Assembly (NCBI GenBank): GCA_903863255.1
Contig: CAIPBJ010000109.1
Location: forward strand, 1 to 52,021
Reading direction: 5' to 3'
From: an uncultured Methylophilaceae bacterium
GTDB lineage: Bacteria; Pseudomonadota; Gammaproteobacteria; Burkholderiales; Methylophilaceae
Length of the DNA: 52,021 bases
The position numbers and the translations under genes are program-made. Numbering within the stretch: the first letter of the stretch is position 1; every line of letters begins with the position of its first letter. The notes below the pieces were generated by a model. The model had not been told where the DNA came from. It was given only the letters and a program-made list of their open reading frames with translations, and did not search any database. Positions 44,687 through 51,623 of this stretch are shown in pieces.

Positions 44687-45343
44687 TTATAAATTCTTAA
44701 ATACCGGCACCTGTCCAAGCTTTACTTCTGAAATACATGGGGCTGAAATTCGTTCTTTCAAGCATAACACGTTCTCCTCGTACATCTCCATTGCAGGATC
44801 AATCTGGTTTGCAACCCAGCCAGCCAGCTTGAGTCCACGAGATTGAATTGCCTCGACTGAAAGCAAAGCATGATTAATGCATCCCAATCTTATTCCGACG
44901 ACAAGTATCATTGGCAAATCCATCTTAATGGCAAGATCGGCTATCGTTTCGCGATCATTCAATGGGACAAGAACCCCCCCGGCCCCCTCTACGATGACAA
45001 CATCTGCAAGTTCGCTTAAACAATCGTAGGCCTCGATTATTTTGTCGCAGGAGATAGCCACTCCTGATAAGCCCGCTGCCAGGTTCGGGGCGACTGGCTG
45101 CGGAAATGAATAAGGATTAACCCATTCCAGAGAAGCGTTAACATTACCGGCTGAGGAAAGTTTAATCACATCCTCGTTCCTGTATTCTGTCGAATGACTT
45201 TCAATTCCTGCCGAAACGGGCTTCATTCCAACGGACTTCAGTCCAATTGAGGAAAAGTGTTTCAAAAGAGCACAGGCAATATAAGTCTTACCGACATTGG
45301 TATCGGTTCCCGTAATAAAGAAAGCTTTGATCATCTTTTTCAT
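44687..45343 (-). CDS. bioD: ATP-dependent dethiobiotin synthetase
   Basis: 218 residues. P-loop TGTDTNVGKTY at the N-terminus, and VVIVEGAGGVLVPL. It carboxylates 7,8-diaminopelargonic acid to dethiobiotin. Its ATG overlaps the bioC stop (ATGA, 45340-45343). It is the last gene of the operon. Confidence 0.97.
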   Translation of the reverse strand: MKKMIKAFFITGTDTNVGKTYIACALLKHFSSIGLKSVGMKPVSAGIESHSTEYRNEDVIKLSSAGNVNASLEWVNPYSFPQPVAPNLAAGLSGVAISCDKIIEAYDCLSELADVVIVEGAGGVLVPLNDRETIADLAIKMDLPMILVVGIRLGCINHALLSVEAIQSRGLKLAGWVANQIDPAMEMYEENVLCLKERISAPCISEVKLGQVPVFKNL

Positions 45344-46206
45344 CGCCTATGAAAGATGATTGGAGTGGATCCGTCATCCATGCGTACCCTATTATTCTTT
45401 TTCCATGCATGTCCATATACGACCTCGTACGTTGCAGGGAGTTTTCCATCCAGTCTGAACCTTTCGTAATTCTCCTGCAGTTTACTCAGGAATCCCTTCC
45501 CTTCAAGACCTCTTCCTCTGCCTTCAGTAGCGTTATGAGCGCCTATGGACTTGATGTCACGCAGGAGATCGATGACATTATCGTAAGTAAGCGTGTATCG
45601 CTCCACATCCAGGACGGGAGCATGGAATCCGGCCCGAATCATGGCATCCCCAATATCATGCATATCAATAAACCGGCTTACATGGGTATGTCCATTGTCT
45701 GTGGCAGCTCGCAATTCCTTCAGCGTGTCTGGACCAAGCGTCGTGAACATGAGAAGCCCTTCCGGCTCAAGCACCCGATGAATCTCATTGAAAGCTTCAT
45801 CAAGGTTATTGCACCATTGCAAAGCAAGGTTTGACCAGACTAGACCGGCACCTTGATCAATCAATGGGATTCTTTCCAGATCTCCGCATATTTCAAAGGA
45901 TTTGCTCCAGCCCAGCATGCGTTTTAGCTTGGGTGTCTGATTTCTAGTCTTTTTAAGCATGTTCATGGAAATATCAAGTGAGATCAGCATGCTTTCCTTG
46001 AATCTGCTTCTCAATCCGCTAACCGCATATCCTGTGCCGCAACCGGCATCAAGAATCTTATCCGGCTGAATTTTCACGAGATTCAGTCTATTGAGCATTT
46101 CATCGCACACGTTTTTTTGAAGTATTGCTGAGTCATCGTATGTATCGGCTGCCCGGTCGAACGAGTTCCTGACTCTTCTTTTGTCTAATCGGTATTGATC
46201 CGTCAT
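45340..46206 (-). CDS. bioC: Malonyl-ACP O-methyltransferase
   Basis: 288 residues. The N-terminus RRVRNSFDRAADTYDDSAILQ is typical of BioC. SAM motif I ILDAGCGTGYAVSGLR, and VWSNLALQWCNNLDEA. It methylates malonyl-ACP to disguise it as a fatty acid primer for pimeloyl synthesis; BioH later removes the methyl. It overlaps bioH and bioD by ATGA junctions, so the three are translated in a chain. Confidence 0.97.
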   Translation of the reverse strand: MTDQYRLDKRRVRNSFDRAADTYDDSAILQKNVCDEMLNRLNLVKIQPDKILDAGCGTGYAVSGLRSRFKESMLISLDISMNMLKKTRNQTPKLKRMLGWSKSFEICGDLERIPLIDQGAGLVWSNLALQWCNNLDEAFNEIHRVLEPEGLLMFTTLGPDTLKELRAATDNGHTHVSRFIDMHDIGDAMIRAGFHAPVLDVERYTLTYDNVIDLLRDIKSIGAHNATEGRGRGLEGKGFLSKLQENYERFRLDGKLPATYEVVYGHAWKKNNRVRMDDGSTPIIFHRR

Positions 46207-46973
46207 GCTTGTGCCAGAAATTTTTTAGTGAGCTCAATGAACTTGTCCGCATGCGATAAGAAAGGCGCATGCGAGGCTCCAGGTATCAGACACAAATCCG
46301 TTGAGGCACGGGCATTCTCTTTCATCCATAGTGCAGCCTCCTTTGGAGCCAAAGTATCGCGTTCACCATGAATCAACAGCATCGGACAAGCGATCGTAAC
46401 GAAGTCGTCCCTTAGGTCATTATTCAAGAGAATATCCAATGCTGACATTAATCCATTTTCATTAGGGATGGGTCTTTCTTCGAAGCTCTTACGCAACACT
46501 CTGATTATTTGTCTTGCATCTTTTGCACCCATGCATTGCAATGTTAGAAACTTGAAAAGTGTCTCGTGGTAATCCGTTCTCATCTGTTCGGCAAACTTCC
46601 TAAAAACACACTCATTGATCCCGTTTCCCCATTTTTCGTCCTGATTGTTCACAAACCGAGGGGACGAGCCTGTTAAAATTAATCTTTTAACCTTTTTCGA
46701 TAAAGCTAAACGCATAGCGACCAACCCACCCATCGACCAACCGCATACATTGACTGAGTCAGGGATGAGGTTGGTTATTTCCGAGACGATTCTTTCCAAG
46801 TTTAGGGGATGAATCTCATGGCTGAATCCCATGCCAGGAAGATCAATCAAAATCAGTTCATAGTCTTCTTGAAGTTTCTCCGCGATGGGATCCCACACCG
46901 CACTGTTCATTCCCCATCCGTGAATCATCAAAAGCGATTCACCATTCCCCACCTTTCTATAAGCCAGATCCAT
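46203..46973 (-). CDS. bioH: Pimeloyl-ACP methyl ester esterase
   Basis: 256 residues of an alpha/beta hydrolase. Oxyanion region HGWGMNSAVWD, nucleophile Ser in GWSMGG, Asp in HGERDTLAP, His in GASHAPF. It cleaves pimeloyl-ACP methyl ester, ending chain elongation before BioF. Its location inside the bio operon supports BioH over other esterases. It starts 2 bp after the bioF stop. Confidence 0.95.
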   Translation of the reverse strand: MDLAYRKVGNGESLLMIHGWGMNSAVWDPIAEKLQEDYELILIDLPGMGFSHEIHPLNLERIVSEITNLIPDSVNVCGWSMGGLVAMRLALSKKVKRLILTGSSPRFVNNQDEKWGNGINECVFRKFAEQMRTDYHETLFKFLTLQCMGAKDARQIIRVLRKSFEERPIPNENGLMSALDILLNNDLRDDFVTIACPMLLIHGERDTLAPKEAALWMKENARASTDLCLIPGASHAPFLSHADKFIELTKKFLAQA

Positions 46974-46975
46974 AT

Positions 46976-48145
46976 TTAAAGCAATTTCTCTGCTTGTTTT
47001 AGGGCGCTTATCAAGCGATGGATATCATCCAAAGAATGGGAAGCCGATATCGATACCCTTAGTCTCGATGATCCTTGAGGAACAGTAGGAGGTCGAATAG
47101 CTGGCACCAGAATCCCTGATGAAAGCAAATACTCACTTAGACTTAAAGCCTTTTCGTTACTACCGACAACGATAGGCTGAATGGCAGTCCGAGATGGCGA
47201 CAACCTCCATTCCTTTAATCTGCATTCCTTTTGAAATGTTTCAATTAAGTGAAAAAGATGGGTCCTGCGTTGGGGTTCGTTTCTAACAAGTTGAATGGCT
47301 TCGATAACTGCAGATGCCAAAGCTGCCGGACTTGCCGTCGTATAGATATAGGTTCGAGCCGTTTGCATCAAATATTCGATTATGAGGGGATCACCTGCAA
47401 CAAATGCGCCTGCAACACCAAACGACTTTCCAAGGGTTGCCATATAGATGATTCGTGAGGATGCTTTTGCAAAGTGCTCAAGTATTCCCCTGCCATTTGC
47501 ACCCATGACTCCAAAACCATGGGCATCATCCAATAAGAGATAAGCGTCATGAAGGTCACACAACTGAAGCAGTTCAGGTAGAGGCGCAATATCCCCATCC
47601 ATGCTGTAAACCGCATCGACAGCAACGATCTTATTTTTTGCAGTACTCTTTGTTAAGAACCCTTCCAAAGCAGTCAAATCATTATGACCGAAACGATGCA
47701 ATTTTGCTCGCGATAAGATTGCCGCATCATTCAGTGAAGCATGGTCAAGCCTGTCTGAGAATACAGCATCGTTTCTTCCAAGGAGTGAACTTAGCACACC
47801 TAAATTAGCCATGTACCCACAAGAAAACAACAGCGCGCGAGGCAATTTGACGAAATCCGCCAAAGCCATCTCAGCCTCGTGATGCAACCTGTGATGACCA
47901 GTCAACAGATGCGAGGCGCCGGTTCCGACCCCGGCCTGGCTCACTCCCTCACAAAATGCCGCCTTTAACGAATCATGGCTGGCCAGCCCTAAATAATCGT
48001 TACTGCAAAACGACAAATATTCCCGACCTTCCAGCGTGACGCGGGCGCCTTGAGCACCATCGATCATGCGCCGATTTCTCAAAAGGCCCTGACGCTCGCG
48101 CTGTTCTAACTCAGCACTTAACGCTGCCATCATAGGAGTTGTCAT
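46976..48145 (-). CDS. bioF: 8-amino-7-oxononanoate synthase
   Basis: 389 residues, fold type I PLP enzyme. CSNDYLGLASH near the start, LLLDDAHGFGVMG, and the PLP lysine in ATLGKSFGVAGAF. It condenses pimeloyl-ACP with alanine. ATG 48145 is taken; ATGs five and six codons later are possible. It lies 34 bp after bioB. The next enzyme, DAPA aminotransferase BioA, is not encoded in the window. Confidence 0.97.
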   Translation of the reverse strand: MTTPMMAALSAELEQRERQGLLRNRRMIDGAQGARVTLEGREYLSFCSNDYLGLASHDSLKAAFCEGVSQAGVGTGASHLLTGHHRLHHEAEMALADFVKLPRALLFSCGYMANLGVLSSLLGRNDAVFSDRLDHASLNDAAILSRAKLHRFGHNDLTALEGFLTKSTAKNKIVAVDAVYSMDGDIAPLPELLQLCDLHDAYLLLDDAHGFGVMGANGRGILEHFAKASSRIIYMATLGKSFGVAGAFVAGDPLIIEYLMQTARTYIYTTASPAALASAVIEAIQLVRNEPQRRTHLFHLIETFQKECRLKEWRLSPSRTAIQPIVVGSNEKALSLSEYLLSSGILVPAIRPPTVPQGSSRLRVSISASHSLDDIHRLISALKQAEKLL

Positions 48146-48179: not shown

Positions 48180-49166
48180 TTAGATCGGATGAATGCCTAA
48201 TTTAGAAAAAAGCCTTTTATCCGCTTCTGCTTCTGGATTACCGGTTGTCAGTAATTTATCGCCATAGAAAATAGAATTGGCCCCCGCTATAAAGCAAAGC
48301 GCCTGGATGCTTTCACTCATGCTTTGTCTTCCTGCAGACAGCCTAACGAAACTTCCCGGGATGGTGATCCTTGCAACCGCGATGGTACGAATGAATTCCA
48401 GGGGATCAAGTTCCTCAGTCCCATGGAGAGGGGTGCCTTCAACTTGTGTAAGCAGATTGATAGGTACACTCTCGGGCGGCCTTTCCATATTGGCCAACTG
48501 GGCAATCAAACCGCATCGTTCCATCCGGCTTTCACCCATCCCAACGATACCGCCACAACAAACGTTGATATCCATCTTCCGAACTCGTTCGAGCGTCTCA
48601 AGCCTGTCCTGATAGGTTCTGGTCGTAATAACATCGCCGTAGAACTCTGGCGACGTATCCAAGTTATGGTTGTAGAAATCAAGACCGGCTTCCTTAAGTT
48701 TCTCCGCCTGACCGTCCTTCAGCATGCCTAATGTTGCACACGTTTCCAGCCCCATGGACTTGACTTCTGCAATCATCTTCAAGACCGGCTCCAGGTCCTT
48801 GTCTTTTGGACTGCGCCATGCAGCACCCATGCAAAAACGGCTTGCACCATTCGCTTTTGCCGCTCGTGCAGCTTCAAGGACTTCATCCAACTGCATCATT
48901 GGCTCGTTCTGAACATCAGTATGATATCGAGCGGCTTGCGGGCAGTAACCGCAATCTTCGGAACAACCTCCTGTCTTTATGGACAAGAGTGTGCTCACCT
49001 GGACTGCATTTGGATCGAAATTCTCCCGGTGAATAGTTTGTGCCTTGTATATTAGGTCACTAAACGGCAATTCATATAATGCAAGTATTTCTTCGATACT
49101 CCAACGTCCCATTGAAGGGTCATTCAATTTTTTTTCAAGTGCCCGCACGTTAATAACCGTTTCCAT
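48180..49166 (-). CDS. bioB: Biotin synthase
   Basis: 328 residues from ATG 49166 with AAGGA 6 bases upstream. Radical-SAM cluster CSEDCGYC (Cys68, Cys72, Cys75), and further conserved segments [25 protein letters not shown] and SAGRQSM. It inserts sulfur into dethiobiotin. Its start shares a base with the stop of the membrane protein gene upstream (TGATG at 49164-49168), so it depends on translation of that gene. Confidence 0.98.
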
Positions 49167-49561
49167 CAATTATCCTTTACAAAGTCCATCGTTTTCCAGG
49201 GTTCTCTTTTTGCTCGCAGAATATCTCGAATACCTAAAGGTATAACGACCAATATGGCAATTCCCCAGATGATCAGGATCAAGTGCATCCACCCACCGAC
49301 TGCTTTCGATATTTGCGGACTGAAATTTAAAATAACAACTAAGGATCCCACCAATCCGTAAAATCGGTATCCTGAAAAACGAATGAACTCTTTTATTTTG
49401 TCATTGGGATGATTCGCCGCCGCCGCATAAACGAAGATGGACGCAGCTATCCATAACAGCATTGGTATAACGAGAGGCAAAAGCAACACAGCGATGCAGG
49501 AGAAAAAAGAGAAGCTTTGAGCCGCTCTCATTTGCTCCTTCGGGGTGATCGTATTTGACAT
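49166..49561 (-). CDS. Unknown small membrane protein heading the biotin operon
   Basis: 131 residues, not recognised. Three or four hydrophobic segments: about 18-48 (long, ending FVYAAAA), 67-82 and 90-114, with a short charged tail [13 protein letters not shown]. The N-terminus [15 protein letters not shown] is hydrophilic with no signal peptide. It lies directly after the bio promoter/operator and is coupled to bioB by TGATG, so it is the first gene of the operon. It shows no likeness that I can see to the biotin transporter BioY (larger, with about six segments). Possible roles such as transport or membrane tethering of a biotin enzyme are speculation. Confidence 0.7.
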
Positions 49562-49576
49562 GAAATATTAACAAGT

Positions 49577-49630
49577 AGGATATGTTGACATTATACATTG
49601 TCAACCAATCGGCCACCAAATAAATTACAA
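49577..49630 (-). promoter_or_regulatory. Promoter and operator-like sites of the biotin operon
   Basis: On the minus strand TTGACA (49599-49604), a 16-base spacer and TATCCT (49577-49582) form one candidate promoter; a perfect TATAAT (49590-49595) with TTGGTG 18 bases upstream is another. A perfect inverted repeat GTTGACA-N8-TGTCAAC (49584-49605) overlaps both. On the minus strand there is also TTGTAATTT-N15-GGTTGACAA (49598-49630), which resembles the BirA box TTGTAAACC-N14/16-GGTTTACAA: 8/9 in the right half and 6/9 in the left. Repression by BirA with biotinyl-AMP would fit, but is inference. Confidence 0.5.
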
Positions 49631-49929: not shown

Positions 49930-50271
49930 ATGAAGGTAACCCAGTCTGCTGCATTGAATTCAGAATTAATGGCAGAAGCTAAAGAATTTGGTATGAAATT
50001 ATCGCGCTTTAGAATCGCCAGAGGTATCAAACAAGCTGAAGCTGCTCTGCGTGCAGGGTTGAGCAGAAATACTGCTTACAGGATGGAAAGTGGAGATCCT
50101 GGAGTCGCATTCGGCCAAATACTTAGATATGTCAATGCGATCGCCCCAGGAATTACTCTTTTGCAAATAATGTCTGAATCTGATCCGGCTTTAGCTGCGC
50201 TAAGCTATCGTGAACGCACAAAACGTGTTCGAGATTTAAGTCAGAGTGAAATAGAGGAGTTGGATTTTTAA
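49930..50271 (+). CDS. hipB: HipB-like XRE-family antitoxin
   Basis: 113 residues. Central helix-turn-helix (about 23-77): LSRFRIARGIKQAEAALRAGLSRNTAYRMESGDPGVAFGQILRYV. The hydrophilic C-terminal tail ends LSQSEIEELDF, which could contact HipA. It would neutralise HipA and repress the operon. Its stop overlaps the hipA start (TAATG, 50269-50273), typical of antitoxin-toxin pairs. The N-terminal extension of about 22 residues is longer than in E. coli HipB. Confidence 0.9.
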   Translation: MKVTQSAALNSELMAEAKEFGMKLSRFRIARGIKQAEAALRAGLSRNTAYRMESGDPGVAFGQILRYVNAIAPGITLLQIMSESDPALAALSYRERTKRVRDLSQSEIEELDF

Positions 50272-51623
50272 TGGAAAAAGAATCGAAGTTAGGGGTTTTT
50301 TCCTATTTGGATGGATGGGAGCCCTCTGGAATATTGACTATGAACGAGGATAATACACAGGTATTGTCCTCGGCTTTTAGTTATGGGTCAAAATACTTGG
50401 ATAGGATTAATGCTATTGAGATTGACCCAGTTAGCTTAAGTTTGAATGATAAAGCTGGGATAAAACATAAGGCATTAAATCCTTTTGGTGGTATGACGTA
50501 TTTTGGAGGAATACGAGATGCTGCTCCTGACTCATGGGGCCGTCGAGTTATCGAATCTAAATTAAAAGCTCCGCCAGACTCTTTGAATGAATCAGTATAT
50601 TTGATACATGCAGGCAGCAATAGAGTGGGTTCGCTAGACATAAGATCATCAATCAATGATAAACCTAGAGAAGGTGAGGTAAACTGGGCAAACCTTGAAT
50701 ACTTAATGGAAGCTGCAGCACGCATTGATGAAGGGTTGCCAATTCCCGCAAGCCTTGAGGTGGTCTACGCGAACGGATCTGCGCTTGGCGGAGGACGACC
50801 AAAAGCGTCTATTCGGGATGAGTTAGGAGTTCAATACCTTGCAAAATTTAGCGGGGTTAAAGATCCATATTCAATTCCAGATATTGAGATGGCTACCATG
50901 AGATTAGCTTCAATATGCGGATTAACGGTTCCTGCCGTCAGAGTTGTTCAGCTAGGCACTAAAAGAGTTATGATGATTCGTCGCTTTGACCGCTATTTTT
51001 CAAAAGGTCAGCAATCGCTAAACATGACTGAGATGCTGACAAGTATGCCGGGTACCGGATACATGGAAAAAAGACTACCCTTCGTGAGCGGCCTCACAAT
51101 GTTAAATTGTCATGAGTCAGATTCACCAAAAAAATCGTATTCAGATCTGGCATCTGCTATAAAAAAACATTGCCATACTTCGGTTATTAAAGATGATCAA
51201 CGAGAATTATATGGAAGGATGATCTACAACATATTGGTGAGTAATGATGATGATCATCTTAGAAATCACGGTTTCGTATTAGATCCAAACATTAAAGGCT
51301 GGAGACTAAGTCCACTTTACGATGTTATGCCACGGCCAAGTTTAGCTTATGATCGCAACTTGCATTTGAGCATTGGTGATCACGGACGCATGGCGACTAT
51401 TAATAATGCCCTAACGTCACATGTTCTATTTGATCTATCTTTAGAGGCCGCAGAAGAGATAGTTGATCGAATCTACAAGCACGTCCGCGAATGGAAGGTT
51501 TATTTCGAAAGCTTTGGCGTGCAAGAAAAAGACATTAAATTGATTGATTCAGCATTTCGGAAAATGGATGATATTCGAAAAAATGAATATAAAACAAAGA
51601 CGAAACATGGACTTAAATATTAA
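50271..51623 (+). CDS. hipA: HipA-family serine/threonine kinase toxin
   Basis: 450 residues, full length. HipA_N domain with FGGIRDAAPDSWGRRV (78-93). Gly-rich loop GSALGGGRPKAS (169-180), where Ser170 corresponds in place to the autophosphorylated Ser150 of E. coli HipA. Catalytic NDDDHLRNHG (325-334) with Asp327 and Asn332, and metal motif PLYDVMP (Asp351). E. coli HipA phosphorylates glutamyl-tRNA synthetase and causes growth arrest; the target here is unknown. GAGGAG gives a strong ribosome site within the hipB end. All catalytic residues are present, so it is probably active. Confidence 0.95.
   Translation: MEKESKLGVFSYLDGWEPSGILTMNEDNTQVLSSAFSYGSKYLDRINAIEIDPVSLSLNDKAGIKHKALNPFGGMTYFGGIRDAAPDSWGRRVIESKLKAPPDSLNESVYLIHAGSNRVGSLDIRSSINDKPREGEVNWANLEYLMEAAARIDEGLPIPASLEVVYANGSALGGGRPKASIRDELGVQYLAKFSGVKDPYSIPDIEMATMRLASICGLTVPAVRVVQLGTKRVMMIRRFDRYFSKGQQSLNMTEMLTSMPGTGYMEKRLPFVSGLTMLNCHESDSPKKSYSDLASAIKKHCHTSVIKDDQRELYGRMIYNILVSNDDDHLRNHGFVLDPNIKGWRLSPLYDVMPRPSLAYDRNLHLSIGDHGRMATINNALTSHVLFDLSLEAAEEIVDRIYKHVREWKVYFESFGVQEKDIKLIDSAFRKMDDIRKNEYKTKTKHGLKY

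Follow-up and report, generated by a model that had tools for sequence, protein, structure and literature searches.

What does a small membrane protein do at the head of a biotin operon? In the window, the whole 52,021-nucleotide stretch of Methylophilaceae DNA analysed here, an ATG-started open reading frame for 131 residues (49166..49561, minus strand) is followed on the same strand by bioB, for biotin synthase (48180..49166; TIGR00433, 413 bits against a cut-off of 225), bioF, for 8-amino-7-oxononanoate synthase (46976..48145; TIGR00858), bioH, for pimeloyl-ACP methyl ester esterase (46203..46973; TIGR01738), bioC, for malonyl-ACP O-methyltransferase (45340..46206; TIGR02072), and bioD, for dethiobiotin synthase (44687..45343; TIGR00347), each above its curated NCBIfam cut-off. 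The stop codon of the first gene (TGA, 49168-49166) and the bioB start (ATG, 49166-49164) form TGATG at 49164..49168 on the minus strand with base 49166 in common, which bears out the sequence-only reading of this gene as the first in the operon and directly joined to bioB. The frame is not a chance one, because homologues 29-71% identical to it keep both the frame and its place in many families. The absence of bioA, also remarked on in that reading, holds for the cluster but not for the genome, where a copy above cut-off lies on another contig (G000:C97:2662-3909, 526.7 bits).

The sequence-only reading had not recognised the protein as a biotin gene product, and the profile libraries agree. 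Against Pfam and NCBIfam the window protein gives weak matches only, all below the cut-offs, its sole Pfam match being YIF1 (12.3 bits, far under the cut-off of 27.6), and the best E-values of 33 alignment members are 0.0054 and 0.0056. The protein shares the character of a small helical membrane protein with YIF1, DUF1467 and DUF4870, but the best E-values to these among the 33 members are 0.0054, 0.02 and 0.029, respectively. A profile search of PDB sequences returned one designed protein at E 0.91 and nothing else, Foldseek of the structural model against the PDB reached a best E of 1.8, VIA-align gave a best Z of 7.7 to unrelated helical bundles, the level of generic helical bundles, and a fold search of a viral structure set with the model found no match. 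Titles and abstract openings of the literature matches listed hold no description of this gene. The family is thus an undescribed one in Pfam, in NCBIfam and among the literature matches listed.

AlphaFold2, given 79 alignment rows, models the protein confidently as a four-helix bundle (mean pLDDT 96.2, pTM 0.86) with long helices at residues 7-26, 31-49, 54-79 and 91-119, a short helix at 81-87 and short strands at both ends. Three or four hydrophobic segments had been counted from the sequence; the model favours four, while hydropathy on its own picks out residues 13-50 (TM1-2) and 86-116 (TM4), and no 19-residue window over TM3 exceeds 1.6. Each sequence has on average 8.5 lysines and arginines at the 51 positions taken as cytoplasmic, compared with 0.7 at the 19 external ones. 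The positive-inside rule therefore predicts both termini and the H51-P52-N53 loop on the cytoplasmic side, the orientation in which the protein is predicted to lie in the membrane. Conservation peaks in the loop at 50-53 (0.87), drops to 0.36 in the outer stretch 80-90 and to 0.35 at the N-terminus, the two least conserved parts, and is higher in the cytoplasmic half than in the other half (0.59 vs 0.51, p = 0.03). Seven residues are invariant in the 33 members (S41, H51, P52, R66, Y68, W99 and W122); in 79 members S41, P52 and Y68 remain so and twelve more columns are conserved at 90% or above, with no cysteine among the invariant or near-invariant columns of either alignment.

Linkage to bioB is strong. 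A search of 149 relatives from the order, own genome included, found a homologue in 44 and bioB (E 1e-40 or better) in 133; the 57 matches in these 44 genomes include 43, one per genome, that immediately precede bioB in the same orientation. In the remaining carrier (G022, 75% complete) the sole copy runs to the contig end, and no bioB passes the threshold. At the larger order-level loci, bio-linked copies are followed, in this order, by bioB, bioF, bioH, bioC and bioD as far as the contigs reach. A class-wide sample yielded a homologue in 55 of 369 genomes, or 54 without the window's own, and bioB lies directly downstream in 49 of the 54 (28/29 in one set read, 21/25 in the other); of the rest, G215, an assembly of 500 contigs, has a copy that ends at the edge of a contig and lacks a bioB match above the cut-off, and G216, G346, G268 and G383 have bioB elsewhere in the genome. 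Order and class together thus give 92 of 98 genomes with bioB directly downstream on the same strand, four unlinked and two at a contig edge. Thirty-four family labels carry the gene, with linkage to bioB in 32 (f170 is unlinked, f117 cut off). In a collection of named genomes searched with one peptide pattern, bioB is next in 77 of the best 80 of 146 relatives, the other three being extra copies in Methylophilaceae; the named carriers include Methylovorus, Methylobacillus, Candidatus Methylopumilus, Sulfuricella, Sulfuriferula, Thiobacillus and Sideroxydans. A spread beyond the class finds no support, as the carriers in a phylum-wide sample (3/398 genomes, one the window's own) all belong to the window's order.

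The junction is tight as well. Among 134 homologous loci, duplicates included, the gene overlaps bioB in 72 and lies 0-30 bases from it in 53, hence 125 of 134 within that spacing, with the bioB start taken nearest the upstream stop, a choice that favours overlaps. For a predicted membrane protein that falls below every family cut-off and whose coupling to bioB holds for most carriers across the class, a role in the biotin pathway is well supported, and the earlier argument that so tight a coupling to bioB should mean a common pathway appears sound on this gene-order evidence.

An operator-like promoter upstream had also been proposed, and a candidate BirA operator, TTGTAATTT-N15-GGTTGACAA, is present upstream of the operon at 49598..49630 on the minus strand. 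Its right half is perfect and its left half agrees at 6 of 9 positions, 15 of 18 letters in all of the BirA half-site consensus; 4 of 1000 shuffles of the 300-base upstream stretch score as well. The BirA of the same genome has an N-terminal HTH_11 domain (51.5 bits, cut-off 25), and this DNA-binding domain together with the upstream site suggests that the operon belongs to the BirA regulon. Scores of at least 14/18 occur at 16 of the order's 42 bio-linked loci other than the window, at 18 of 29 class-level loci, 11 of them with a perfect TTGTAAACC half, and at one of the 16 loci whose copy is not at the head of a bio operon (three of these 16 are contigs counted twice). They occur at 3 of 58 loci of the named collection, all three Methylophilaceae; the 58 come mainly from Thiobacillus- and Sulfuricella-type genomes with some Methylophilaceae, so the consensus used does not fit the Thiobacillus-/Sulfuricella-type loci. 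Many of the Thiobacillus-type loci among L210-L244 have another spaced motif upstream of the gene, a candidate variant BirA operator at about -61 in which a TGTTCAA-like part is followed by TTTGACAG.

Which part of the pathway the protein serves is best read from genomes in which bioF lies apart from bioB. In five of them (G305, G416, G509, G222 and G452) the gene and bioB adjoin with no bioF, bioH, bioC or bioD match in the 14-kb locus; bioF lies about 30 kb away in the first three and on another contig in G222 and G452, and in G452 the pair is flanked by genes that by eye look like those for a ribosomal protein and mnmG. The sequence-only reading had offered a membrane partner of biotin synthase, a small transporter or a sensor; the partner fits best, because these five genomes keep the gene with bioB and have bioF elsewhere, the transporter stays a rival, and nothing found points to a sensor. 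The linkage to bioB, the control site, the coupling, the bioB-only pairing and the presence of bioF in 13 of 13 carriers tested, picked mostly for unusual loci, lead us to a helper of the BioB step that would be made when biotin is short. We tentatively propose, at a little under an even chance, an accessory role for the protein: set in the inner membrane and controlled by BirA, it would assist the last step of the pathway, from dethiobiotin to biotin.

Two class-level genomes, G174 and G319, have a strongly divergent BioB. Its mean difference is 67%, whereas the other class-level loci, with these two counted in their means, reach 37-41%; it has glycine at the position of E. coli BioB Cys97 and in this resembles the type II enzymes of anaerobes. 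The membrane protein gene still stands in front of it, its product differing by 65% against 50-59% elsewhere and lacking R66, while bioC and bioD are ordinary and the divergence of bioF and comF is slightly raised. We count the retained position and the raised divergence in favour of a tie to BioB, and the loss of R66 against it. At these loci (L275 in G174, L274 in G319) bioB was apparently swapped in place, with the gene in front of it kept. G319 also has a second copy (L278, G319:C12), which matches in two pieces and has no bio gene match nearby. A mirror-tree comparison of the protein with BioB gives a partial correlation of 0.58 over all loci; without G174 and G319 it is 0.26 with bioB against 0.40 with bioF, and we reject it as general evidence for BioB, which is singled out only with those two genomes in.

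Residue losses vary among the loci. In G268 and G383, whose copies precede bioC and are not linked to bioB, H51, R66, W99 and W122 are lost together, which favours a tie to BioB. Against it, the other two unlinked genomes, G216 and G346, keep the invariant residues, and single replacements occur beside bioB, H51 by asparagine in L256 and W99 by glycine in L269.

The survey of neighbourhoods that the sequence-only reading had called for is strongly positive among carriers, but that reading also held that absence beside bioB in close relatives would count against it, and this is partly what is seen: within the own family the gene is present in 36 of 83 bioB-bearing genomes and absent from 47, so biotin synthesis does not in general depend on it. 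A BioB tree of 66 rows implies at least eight changes in its presence, only two of which are forced by well-supported branches. No replacement gene was found among open reading frames of at least 70 codons in 20 gene-less loci that we read.

The order search also returned 14 matches that do not head a bio operon, one of which is the cut-off G022 match, leaving 13 copies, 12 of them from one family; one, in G042, lies near the bio operon on the other strand. Nearly all invariant residues are kept in these 13, so BioB alone does not explain those residues. The tree nests the copies among bio-linked ones, albeit with few columns, many forks unresolved and a very long L055 branch, and linkage to bioB therefore looks ancestral. 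Eight of the 13 (L038, L040-L044, L048 and L055) have oxidase-type or TonB-receptor genes as neighbours: TonB receptors, with copper/haem receptors as their nearest families though far below those cut-offs, beside L042, L043, L044, L055 and, by eye, L040; COX1, COX2, SCO1 and Rrf2 beside L041 (Pfam) and L038 (by eye); and a thioredoxin-like gene with a COX1-like fragment below cut-off beside L048. For the others, neighbours named by eye are LysR-type regulators at L045-L047, an efflux set at L036, and at L080 both a comF-like gene and the bio operon.

Helpers of BioB have a precedent. Passages of PMC11099021 describe BsaP (Rv1590), the biotin synthase auxiliary protein of actinobacteria, as bioB-linked, mostly downstream of bioB, and needed for the activity of its BioB in vivo and in vitro; it has three conserved cysteines that likely hold an Fe-S cluster, and the BioB it serves is without one [2Fe-2S] ligand, the equivalent of Cys128 of E. 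coli BioB. As far as those passages describe it, BsaP resembles the present protein in being bioB-linked in part of the bioB-bearing bacteria and in having no known fold, help to BioB being shown for BsaP and proposed here, but our protein has no conserved cysteine, has four membrane helices and is encoded upstream. The Cys128-equivalent ligand is present in 193 of 193 aligned BioB rows, duplicates and gene-less genomes included. A helper of the BsaP type as there described is accordingly rejected, since conserved cysteines are lacking and the BioB partners keep the ligand tied to BsaP; a role that may be comparable to BsaP, exercised by a different kind of protein, is our best reading.

The main rival, and the strongest, is an importer. 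A small inner-membrane carrier of biotin or dethiobiotin would be induced by biotin shortage, with BioB using the imported dethiobiotin, a proposal we judge unlikely although it would suit the BirA-like operator, the four-helix size and the pairing of the gene with bioB without bioF nearby. Importers controlled by BirA exist, YigM for biotin among them, and like YigM and BioY the protein would be a membrane component of a biotin regulon; unlike BioY, it has four helices in 131 residues, and the window protein has no match to BioY (PF02632) up to E 10. BioY has no match in the own genome, and the 4 of 149 relatives that have it all lack the gene, which leaves the carriers without a BioY importer and counts in favour of an importer of this family; with 4/149 only, BioY co-occurrence is uninformative as a clue to who needs the gene. 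Five of the 13 non-heading copies adjoin TonB receptors, which usually work with inner-membrane carriers. A passage of PMC9561691 says that the route by which dethiobiotin enters cells is unknown, which we count in favour of an importer. Against it, the most conserved loop is predicted to be cytoplasmic and the outer loop 80-90 is variable, and no transporter fold matches above generic helical bundles, a point that weighs little. The carriers tested, mostly those with unusual loci, also have bioF without exception, whereas importers often persist in strains that have lost the pathway.

The neighbours of the duplicates would suit a general membrane factor for metalloproteins, concerned with metal supply, insertion or protection, that serves BioB here and copper, haem or oxidase systems through the duplicates. 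COX1, COX2, SCO1, Rrf2, the copper/haem-like TonB receptors and the thioredoxin-like gene all fit this, as do the nesting of these copies in the tree and the retention of nearly all their invariant residues, but the conserved residues, with one histidine, no cysteine and no methionine, form no recognisable metal site, 5 of the 13 copies have other neighbours by eye, and the preponderance of one family tells against it too; we regard it as quite unlikely. A partner of the early pathway, acting with BioC or BioH on the pimeloyl part, or of the whole operon and first by history, is harder still to credit: bioF, bioH, bioC and bioD do follow bioB in most loci read far enough, and G268 and G383 have the gene before bioC without bioB, yet the copies before bioC are those that lost four invariant residues, and the five genomes above keep the bioB pair with none of the other four genes matched in their loci. 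Least probable, and in our view a slim chance, is a leader gene that acts only through its translation and membrane insertion, which would set the output of BioB or place the message at the membrane, with little function for the protein. The frequent overlap with bioB is what such a leader would show, but the conservation of residues in many families and the confidently modelled fold show selection on the protein itself.

For the accessory factor of the BioB step, the proposed sequence of events would run as follows. When biotin is scarce, BirA would leave the operator, and the membrane protein would be made just before BioB from the same message by coupled translation. Inserted as a four-helix bundle, it would have its two ends and the highly conserved H51-P52-N53 loop on the cytoplasmic side, as the model and the positive-inside rule predict, where it would most likely contact BioB, or what BioB needs, improving its working under some conditions. 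BioB is an oxygen-sensitive iron-sulphur enzyme that is treated as soluble; the protein might, for example, hold BioB at the membrane and, since the enzyme loses its iron-sulphur clusters while working, help with their protection or renewal. This docking at the cytoplasmic face with cluster protection or renewal is the form of the accessory role that we favour, and with it the presence of duplicates near oxidase and metal genes would make sense too. The protein would be an aid rather than an essential part, because many relatives are without the gene. The BioB of the window has its cluster ligands at 7 of 7 positions checked and so does not look dependent on a helper, which speaks against the proposal. 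A bolder version, in which many beta- and gammaproteobacteria have their BioB working at the inner membrane, where a dedicated BirA-regulated four-helix protein docks it and helps to maintain or renew its clusters, and in which duplicates were recruited to do likewise for oxidase and metal-uptake systems, we think rather improbable.

Low turnover of BioB limits biotin production, and to our knowledge it is poorly understood how living cells renew the cluster that BioB sacrifices. The family described here provides a concrete gene with which to study this step, and the close relatives without it are natural controls.

The surroundings of the operon also differ among relatives. A divergently oriented comF-like gene, named by eye and in one case a fragment, adjoins bioB in 14 of the 20 gene-less loci. 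With the ComF of a relative as query, the own genome gave no match in a search run without a positive control. At the site where many of the relatives read have the comF-like gene, the window instead has a HipB/HipA-like toxin-antitoxin pair with HTH and HipA_C domains (49930-51623, plus strand), divergent from the biotin operon.
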